The position numbers and the translations under genes were made by a program. This document shows, piece by piece, positions 6 to 51,131 of a stretch of DNA of 64,000 nucleotides (the first letter of the stretch is position 1; each line of letters starts with the position of its first letter). The notes under the pieces were generated by a model. That model made no database searches, was not told where the DNA came from, and saw nothing but the letters and a program-made list of their open reading frames with translations. The DNA lies in assembly GCA_009927165.1 (NCBI GenBank), contig RFNO01000107.1:1-64000 (forward strand). The letters run 5' to 3'. This DNA is from Pseudomonadota bacterium (GTDB lineage: Bacteria > Bdellovibrionota > FAC87 > UBA2466).

Positions 6-81
<76 letters not shown>

Positions 82-88
82 TTCCCCC

Positions 89-709
89 ATGAATGCTTTT
101 ATTTCCAAGCTTAAGTGGCTCCTCATTATTCCGTTAATCTTCATGGCTGTTGTTTGGGTCTCTCAAAACACAACAAGAGATAAATTGCCGGTTCTTATTG
201 AGTTACCTGCTTTCGACCTTAAAACTCAAGATGGAGCACCTTTCTCGAAGCAAAACCTTTTGGGACACGTTACGCTCATCAACTTTATTTTTACGTCGTG
301 TCCGACGGTTTGTCCGCTGCTGACTCAAAGGATGAAATCGATTGTTTCTGCAACGGATAATCCCCAATTGAGGTTTGTATCCATCTCTGTTGATCCCGAA
401 ACGGATAGTCCGAATGTTCTCAAAAAGTATGGCGATAAATTTGGTGCGGATTGGACCAAGTGGACTTTCTTAACAGGAACTCTAGGTGCAATCTCGGAAG
501 TAGTGGTGAAAGGATTTAAAATAGTTTTGATTCGGGACAAGAAGAACACCACAACCAGCGAAGCTAAAGATTTATTTGATATTACTCATGGCGAACATTT
601 TGTCTTAGTGGATAAACACGCCAACATTCGAGCTTATCGCATGATTGCAACCGATACCGAGCAAACCGAAGTGCTTGACCTACTGAATGATCTTGAAAAG
701 GAAGATTAG
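89..709 (+). CDS. SCO1/SenC-family copper chaperone, membrane anchored
   Basis: This is a thioredoxin-fold protein of the SCO family, which delivers copper to the CuA site of cytochrome c oxidase or acts as a periplasmic thiol redox protein. One N-terminal membrane segment (about residues 8-26) would anchor the domain in the periplasm. The CxxxC copper motif is CPTVC (Cys71, Cys75), and the third ligand is probably His167 in ITHGEHFVLVD, placed as in other SCO proteins. At 206 residues it has normal family length. The ATG lies 7 nt after the CCA of tRNA-Asn; the only SD-like sequence (GGGAG) lies in the tRNA acceptor stem. No oxidase subunits are in the window, so the exact partner is unknown. 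Confidence 0.9.
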   Translation: MNAFISKLKWLLIIPLIFMAVVWVSQNTTRDKLPVLIELPAFDLKTQDGAPFSKQNLLGHVTLINFIFTSCPTVCPLLTQRMKSIVSATDNPQLRFVSISVDPETDSPNVLKKYGDKFGADWTKWTFLTGTLGAISEVVVKGFKIVLIRDKKNTTTSEAKDLFDITHGEHFVLVDKHANIRAYRMIATDTEQTEVLDLLNDLEKED

Positions 710-49650: not shown

Positions 49651-49741
49651 TGGCGGAGAGAGAGAGATTCGAACTCTCGATAGGCTATTAACCTATACAC
49701 GCGTTCCAGGCGTGCGCCTTCAACCACTCGGCCATCTCTCC
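49651..49741 (-). tRNA. tRNA-Ser (anticodon GGA)
   Basis: The minus strand folds into a class II tRNA of 91 nt: acceptor GGAGAGA/TCTCTCC, anticodon stem CACGC/GCGTG around loop CTGGAAC (anticodon GGA), a long variable arm with ATAGG/CCTAT, T arm GAGAG-TTCGAAT-CTCTC, discriminator G and encoded CCA. It reads UCC and UCU codons. It borders the surface-glycan locus; I found no second copy of its 3' end in the window that would mark an integration. Confidence 0.97.
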
Positions 49742-49819: not shown

Positions 49820-50293
49820 TTACGCTCCGCGTTTAGAGCGCTTGGTTTTGAAGTACTGGCTGAGCGCGGAGCCACATTTTTCGCCTAAAACTCCCCCTCG
49901 AACGACTTTAAACCGATGATCGAATACTCCTTTTTCAATTAGAGGTAATAACATTTCTAAACCAGCTCCTTTGGGGTCTTTTGCGCCATAAAAAATAGAC
50001 TCGACTCGGCCCCACAAGAGAGCACCTGTGCACATCATGCAAGGTTCAATCGTGACATAGAGAGCAGTTTCGAGAGGCAAACGCCATTGGCCAGTTCGTC
50101 GATTGTAATCTTCCAGGGCCTCGATTTCAGCGTGCGCCGTGGTTTTTCCACTCTTTTCCCGCAAGTTATAGCCTTGTCCAATCACTTTTCCGTCATGAAC
50201 TAAGATGGCCCCTATCGGAACTTCATCTAGTCGTTCGGCAGAACTGCCGAGATCCAGGGCAAGTTGCATGAATTGTTCATGATTAAAATCCAT
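49820..50293 (-). CDS. tadA: tRNA adenosine(34) deaminase
   Basis: TadA converts A34 to inosine in tRNA-Arg(ACG). The zinc site is HAEIEAL (His and the catalytic Glu) and PCMMC. MDFNHEQFMQLALDLG at the N terminus matches the family start. The ORF track begins at 50398 inside tRNA-Leu and gives the familiar false peptide GGIGRHAGLRSL; ATG 50293 is the real start and gives 157 residues. This ATG is only 7 nt (TTCTTTT) after the tRNA-Leu CCA, so no SD can exist in a processed mRNA. tRNA-Ser follows 78 nt downstream on the same strand. Confidence 0.93.
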   Translation of the reverse strand: MDFNHEQFMQLALDLGSSAERLDEVPIGAILVHDGKVIGQGYNLREKSGKTTAHAEIEALEDYNRRTGQWRLPLETALYVTIEPCMMCTGALLWGRVESIFYGAKDPKGAGLEMLLPLIEKGVFDHRFKVVRGGVLGEKCGSALSQYFKTKRSKRGA

Positions 50294-50300
50294 AAAAGAA

Positions 50301-50385
50301 TGGTGCTCGGCGGGAGACTCGAACTCCCACGGGTCGCCCCACAGGCTTCTGAGACCTGCGTGTCTACCAATTCCACCAGCCGAGC
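50301..50385 (-). tRNA. tRNA-Leu (anticodon CAG)
   Basis: The minus strand gives an 85-nt class II tRNA: acceptor GCTCGGC/GCCGAGC, D arm with TGGTGGAATTGGTAGACA, anticodon stem CAGGT/GCCTG with loop CTCAGAA (anticodon CAG), variable arm, T arm GGGAG-TTCGAGT-CTCCC, discriminator A and encoded CCA. It reads CUG. It lies directly upstream of tadA. Confidence 0.97.
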
Positions 50386-50453
50386 GAAATTTCGGCAAAA
50401 TTTACAAACAAATACTTAACTGGAGAGGCCCAATTTGTCTATGATGCAGAGTC

Positions 50454-51131
50454 ATGGCCAAGCGAGGTTTTTTTATCAGTTTTGAAGGCGGGGAGGGGGG
50501 AGGAAAGTCTACCCAAATTAAACGTTTGAAAACGGTCCTGCGACGTAATCGAGTGCCTTTTCTGGTAACTTTAGAGCCTGGAGGGACTCGGATTGGAAGA
50601 AAAATTCGGGAGCTTCTCTTAAACCCCAAAAATAAGAACTTATCCAATCGAGCTGAACTGTATTTGTATGAAGCAGACCGAGCTCAACATGTGGAGGAAG
50701 TGATTCGACCTGCTTTGGAGGCGGGTAAAGTTGTTATTACGGATCGTTATGCGGATTCCTCTTCCGTTTATCAAGGTATCTGCCGTGGGTTGGGAGTCGG
50801 ATGGACGGAAAAACTCAATGACTTTGCTACCCAATATCTTTATCCCGATTTAGTTATTGTTTTAGATGTACCTGAATCTGTCGGTCTCTCAAGGGTCCGC
50901 AACCGGCTTCAGAGTGATCCGAAGCTGCGAGGAAAGCGCAGAGTAGTAAAATTGGACCGCTTAGAGCGTGAACGCTCTTCTTTTCACCGAAAAGTTCGGA
51001 AAGGTTTTATTGCACTTTCGAAGAAACATTCTGAACGAATTAAATTAATAGATGCCACACAAAGTCCCGATAATGTCTCTCAACAGATTTTAGCCCTCAT
51101 TCAAAAACGCTGGGGAAAGAGACTCAGATGA
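50454..51131 (+). CDS. tmk: Thymidylate kinase
   Basis: Tmk phosphorylates dTMP to dTDP. The P-loop is FEGGEGGGKST (10-20), followed by LEPGGTRIGRKIRELLL (the family TREPGG region with Leu for Thr-Arg), the DR(Y/H) motif ITDRYADSSSVYQG and VLDVPESVGLSRVRNR. At 225 residues the length is normal. The gene is followed by the delta-prime subunit gene with a 4-nt ATGA overlap, the standard tmk-holB arrangement. A ThyX-type synthase for the preceding step lies at 61626. Confidence 0.95.
   Translation: MAKRGFFISFEGGEGGGKSTQIKRLKTVLRRNRVPFLVTLEPGGTRIGRKIRELLLNPKNKNLSNRAELYLYEADRAQHVEEVIRPALEAGKVVITDRYADSSSVYQGICRGLGVGWTEKLNDFATQYLYPDLVIVLDVPESVGLSRVRNRLQSDPKLRGKRRVVKLDRLERERSSFHRKVRKGFIALSKKHSERIKLIDATQSPDNVSQQILALIQKRWGKRLR

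Follow-up and report, generated by a model that had tools for sequence, protein, structure and literature searches.

The thrT-tufB and metY-nusA-infB transcripts of Escherichia coli are tRNA-mRNA co-transcripts, in which a tRNA gene lies 5' of a protein gene, both are transcribed together and the RNA is split by processing, with a spacer long enough to leave room for a normal ribosome-binding site. In bacterial leaderless mRNAs, the start codon stands at or near the 5' end without a Shine-Dalgarno (SD) sequence, since transcription mostly begins at the start codon itself (PMC3848588, PMC4633059), and in mitochondrial tRNA punctuation the tRNAs abut protein genes (cited in PMC4633059; PMC4394434). 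Each of these three is known separately; in the searchable literature, outside which most subscription journals lie, we found no report of tRNA 3' processing giving rise to a leaderless mRNA in bacteria.

In the 64,000-nucleotide stretch of DNA analysed here (the window), a tRNA-Leu(CAG) gene stands directly before tadA. As in the E. coli cases, the tRNA gene lies 5' of the protein gene, and we propose co-transcription followed by splitting; the spacer, however, is only 7 nt and there is no SD. The tadA message would share with leaderless mRNAs a start codon near the 5' end and the lack of an SD, whereas its 5' end would stem from tRNA 3' processing. As in mitochondria, excision of the tRNA would make an almost leaderless mRNA 5' end; unlike there, a minority of the tRNAs is concerned, the genes lie on a bacterial chromosome with its own promoters, and the processing is read from the arrangement of genes. 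On the sequence evidence, we consider it reasonably probable that tRNA-Leu(CAG) and tadA are co-transcribed, that a cut in the spacer yields a tadA mRNA with a short leader and no SD, and that the layout reflects a habit of the genus rather than a circuit dedicated to TadA.

The tRNA-Leu(CAG)-tadA junction and its conservation

The locus belongs to a 2.47-Mb assembly of 137 contigs (G000), which we compared with two other genomes of the same genus (G001 and G002). Its features in the window are:

49651..49741, minus strand: tRNA-Ser(GGA), downstream of tadA (ARAGORN; compared tadA loci)
49820..50293, minus strand: tadA, 157 aa, ATG start, HAE and PCxxC motifs (Pfam, PDB sequence search, NCBIfam, N-terminus alignment)
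50294..50300, minus strand: spacer TTCTTTT, putative 3' endonucleolytic cut site (sequence)
50301..50385, minus strand: tRNA-Leu(CAG), CCA encoded (ARAGORN; genome tRNA set)
50386..50453, no strand: 68-bp region from tRNA-Leu to the divergent tmk, likely holding divergent promoters (DNA alignment)
50454..51131, plus strand: tmk (dTMP kinase), divergent neighbour (NCBIfam TIGR00041, 181 bits)

The CCA of the tRNA occupies 50303-50301 and the tadA ATG 50293-50291, so the 7-nt spacing claimed by the sequence-only reading is exact. The tRNA is the sole CAG-anticodon leucine tRNA found in G000. It lies on the same strand as tadA and directly upstream, and 7 nt are too few to hold a terminator, or a promoter of its own together with a leader.

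The identity of the downstream gene is supported by a match of its product (residues 5-156) to the TadA structures 7cph and 2b3j at an E-value of about 1e-34, by the deaminase domains found with Pfam and by the zinc deaminase motifs HAEIEAL and PCMMC; its score against the NCBIfam TadA model NF008113 is 134 bits, below the 150-bit cut-off of that model. By homology, the start at 50293 is correct. The next in-frame methionine, codon 9, is an invariant residue across the aligned TadA sequences, and several residues precede it in the homologues (two outside TadA sequences in this alignment were entered by hand; the PDB alignments are independent of these). The earlier judgement that the TadA-like N terminus MDFNHEQF makes a later start unlikely therefore stands. 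Upstream, the tadA frame is open back through tRNA-Leu, and the sole listed start codon, the TTG at 50398, precedes the tRNA. The corresponding frame through the tRNA is without any start codon in G001, and that of G002 crosses the tRNA in a different phase, which makes an upstream start of tadA unlikely. Translation through the tRNA was rejected on the same grounds, as G000 and G001 have no usable start codon inside it.

The gene order is kept in all three genomes of the genus, and the tRNA-Leu(CAG) sequence is 100% identical among them. The leader, on the other hand, measures 22 nt in G001 (ATG start) and 23 nt in G002 (GTG start). The comparison of spacing in related genomes, which had been suggested with the original observation, thus upholds the order but not the distance, and a 7-nt leader is no conserved requirement. 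By sequence comparison, the junction dates to the ancestor of the three genomes and its exact length is not tightly constrained. In G002, a five-codon ATG frame, ATGACGATTTTCTTGTGA, follows tRNA-Leu (L003:510-550), and its stop overlaps the tadA GTG, a possible case of translational coupling.

Outside the genus, the other family members examined do not have this order and encode tRNA-Leu(CAG) at other loci. Of 42 tadA loci from named genomes, only the one from a member of the genus (L192) has a tRNA directly upstream. The tRNA-Ser(GGA) on the other side is common in the phylum and beyond, tRNA-Ser genes following tadA in many of the loci examined. The locus thus shares the tRNA-Ser 3' of tadA with many bacteria and differs by the upstream tRNA-Leu(CAG), found only in this genus.

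Proposed transcription, processing and translation of tadA

Co-transcription, the cut site, the enzyme and the mode of translation are steps that we infer, and leaderless translation in the genus stays putative. In the proposed mechanism, tRNA-Leu(CAG) and tadA would form one transcription unit, whose promoter would lie in the 68 bp that separate the tRNA from tmk. There, the DNA alignment of all three genomes shows a conserved block of promoter size (about 50405-50440), which likely contains the divergent promoters of the tRNA and tmk. Scanning the 68 bp revealed no convincing sigma-70 promoter for tRNA-Leu and a promoter-like site for tmk only; a TATGAT (within window positions 50434-50456) ends 8 nt before the tmk ATG and would give a nearly leaderless tmk mRNA. 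With 8 sites at -16 to -11 among 135 SD-less first genes, -10 motifs near start codons are too few to amount to a genome-wide leaderless promoter signal, and none is claimed. The joint tRNA-tadA transcript that had been proposed is the simplest interpretation, supported by the upstream block, by the absence of a detectable promoter inside the tRNA and by the order kept in three genomes.

Since the mRNA follows the tRNA 3' end, this position requires endonucleolytic cleavage. If the U-rich spacer were cut directly behind the CCA, the tRNA precursor would be separated from the tadA mRNA, and exonucleases such as RNase PH would go on to trim the 3' end of the tRNA. For the cut, the best candidate is RNase E: profile searches place RNase E/G and RNase PH over the cut-off in all three genomes, and gave no clear match to RNase Z in any of them. 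An encoded CCA normally protects a tRNA from RNase Z. The RNase E/G match is split in G000 (G000:C2:17795-20068) and in G001: within a single open frame, about 1 kb separates profile positions 1-69 from 73-415, which suggests a large insertion between the two profile parts. In Propionibacterium acnes, RNA-seq located cuts a few nucleotides beyond the encoded CCA of tRNAs, which fits the proposed position (PMC3848588).

After such a cut, no more than about 7 nt would precede the AUG in the tadA mRNA of G000; the near-leaderless message foreseen by the sequence-only reading thus follows, conditionally, from the 7-nt junction. No SD precedes the tadA start in G000, nor is there one in the leaders of G001 and G002. 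Within the tRNA 3' end, an SD was considered and rejected, the only candidates being a GAG 12 nt from the ATG and a GGGAG about 34 nt away. In a survey of 464 kb of G000 (287 predicted genes, with a crude start prediction), an SD-like 4-mer preceded about 31% of all genes (26% of those that come first, 41% of the internal ones), against a background of about 10% in a control stretch. Most genes of G000 are clearly without a strong SD, and tadA without one is therefore ordinary here. The statement that the junction leaves no room for an SD applies to an mRNA severed right behind the tRNA; as an anomaly it falls away. Like other messages that are leaderless or nearly so, the cut mRNA would be translated in the absence of an SD.

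In the uncut RNA, the folded tRNA would reach to about 11 nt from the AUG and should hinder the 30S subunit, so that translation is probably dependent on the cut. Structure predictions leave the first 19 nt of the cut RNA unpaired; in the uncut RNA they keep the acceptor stem closed and allow a weak hairpin of 4 bp between the 3' CCAU and the AUGG at the tadA start. Compared with shuffled sequences, the fold does not clearly gain in strength (z -1.2), and a start-masking structure of 4 bp that is not conserved was discarded.

These data bear on three other explanations. Were a promoter to lie inside the tRNA gene, tadA would have its own transcript, which would either be leaderless or begin with the 3' half of the tRNA, and the abutment would reflect compaction. 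Leaderless transcripts made from promoters are indeed common in some bacteria (PMC3848588, PMC4633059), and some other genes here, such as tmk, carry a -10-like motif just before the start. However, a scan of the minus strand of tRNA-Leu found no sigma-70-like site and no TANNNT-type motif at the right distance; moreover, tRNA function constrains the sequence, which is identical in three genomes whose leader lengths differ, so that a single internal promoter would yield differing leaders. We regard an internal promoter as improbable. Initiation at Met codon 9 (50269-50267), which would lengthen the leader to about 31 nt, can invoke the in-frame ATG and a matching position that could serve as a start in G001 and G002; no SD precedes this codon either, and the residues that homologues carry before the invariant methionine make it very unlikely.

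The remaining explanation is feedback, in which the unprocessed tRNA would block tadA translation and tRNA maturation would gate TadA synthesis. The predicted contrast between the closed, CCAU-AUGG-paired uncut form and the unpaired start of the cut RNA would suit it, but the 4-bp hairpin is unavailable in G001 and G002, where leaders and start regions differ, and the fold does not stand out from its shuffles. Moreover, tRNA-Leu(CAG) has C at position 34 and is not TadA's adenosine substrate, and the usual bacterial substrate, tRNA-Arg(ACG), is encoded elsewhere in the genome (L068/L073). The C34 of the tRNA, the varying spacing, a hairpin that is not conserved and the same layout before genes unrelated to tRNA speak against a TadA-specific circuit. 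A dedicated regulatory reading of the junction is thus unlikely, and feedback of this kind very much so. The earlier proposal that maturation of tRNA-Leu specifically controls a tRNA-modifying enzyme finds no support.

Other tRNA-gene junctions in the genus

Co-transcription with a spacer cut, the explanation we favour, would make tadA one case of a genus habit in which tRNA genes act as transcription starters for unrelated downstream genes. A second junction of the same kind lies in the window itself:

6..81, plus strand: tRNA-Asn(GTT) (ARAGORN)
82..88, plus strand: spacer TTCCCCC, 7 nt from the tRNA-Asn CCA to the next ATG (sequence)
89..709, plus strand: SCO1/SenC family protein, 206 aa, with an N-terminal hydrophobic segment (Pfam PF02630, E 1.5e-27)

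This pair is spaced by 7, 26 and 22 nt in G000, G001 and G002, respectively. In the same order, a thioesterase gene starts 6, 8 and 8 nt from the annotated end of tRNA-Arg(UCG). Further pairs are tRNA-Ala(UGC) with a DUF1275 gene (7 nt in G001, 12 nt in G002), tRNA-Gly(UCC) with a D-Ala-D-Ala dipeptidase (10 nt in G001, 7 nt in G002) and tRNA-Cys with a thiamine-binding protein (28 nt in G000, 9 nt in G001). A looser junction joins tRNA-Thr(CGU) to a PLP enzyme with an ACT domain, probably threonine dehydratase, whose ATG is 38, 14 and 38 nt away in the three genomes.

Two details of these pairs are worth recording. The amino acid of tRNA-Thr(CGU) matches the threonine-dehydratase-type enzyme encoded after it (L061, L111, L141), which may be chance. 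The tRNA-Arg(UCG) gene has no encoded CCA in G000 (L072, G000:C114), and CCA is encoded in G001 and G002 (L126, L150).

Taken together, a coding sequence starts within 15 nt of about 12 of the 84 genus tRNAs, versus 2 of 84 in the relatives G006, G007 and G018 (Fisher p about 0.01, for a post hoc test devised after seeing the data, in which orthologous pairs are not independent and one counted genus case, the tRNA-Arg of G002, sits at a contig end outside the denominator). The count covers tRNAs with enough flank, some tRNAs at contig ends being left aside, and cases backed by homology or gene order. G018, a relative at the phylum level, is a single contig of 2,657,893 bases. The two cases in the relatives are a tRNA-Gln followed by a VF530 gene at 7 nt and a tRNA-Leu followed at 14 nt by an acetyltransferase-like gene, the latter named by eye. 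A coding-score filter alone retains fewer junctions, 9 in the genus and 0 in the relatives. The notion of the U-rich leader as a conserved regulatory element was dropped: the spacers resemble ordinary tRNA trailers in the genus and in G018.

Implications for the genus

A punctuation-like trait is present in the sense that several tRNAs of the genus abut different protein genes, and this broader pattern is more interesting than the tadA case itself. A bolder extension, which we put forward only tentatively, is that the genus uses tRNA punctuation, with tRNA 3' processing as the only source of the 5' ends of several mRNAs, that of tadA included, and leaderless translation of these mRNAs, so that the rate of tRNA maturation would set their expression jointly. 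If true, bacteria would have a counterpart to the tRNA punctuation of mitochondria, and the capacity for tRNA processing would bear on how strongly several mRNAs are expressed. The tRNA-Leu(CAG)-tadA junction would then offer a natural test of ribosome start on leaders of at most 7 nt, outside the lineages known for leaderless genes.
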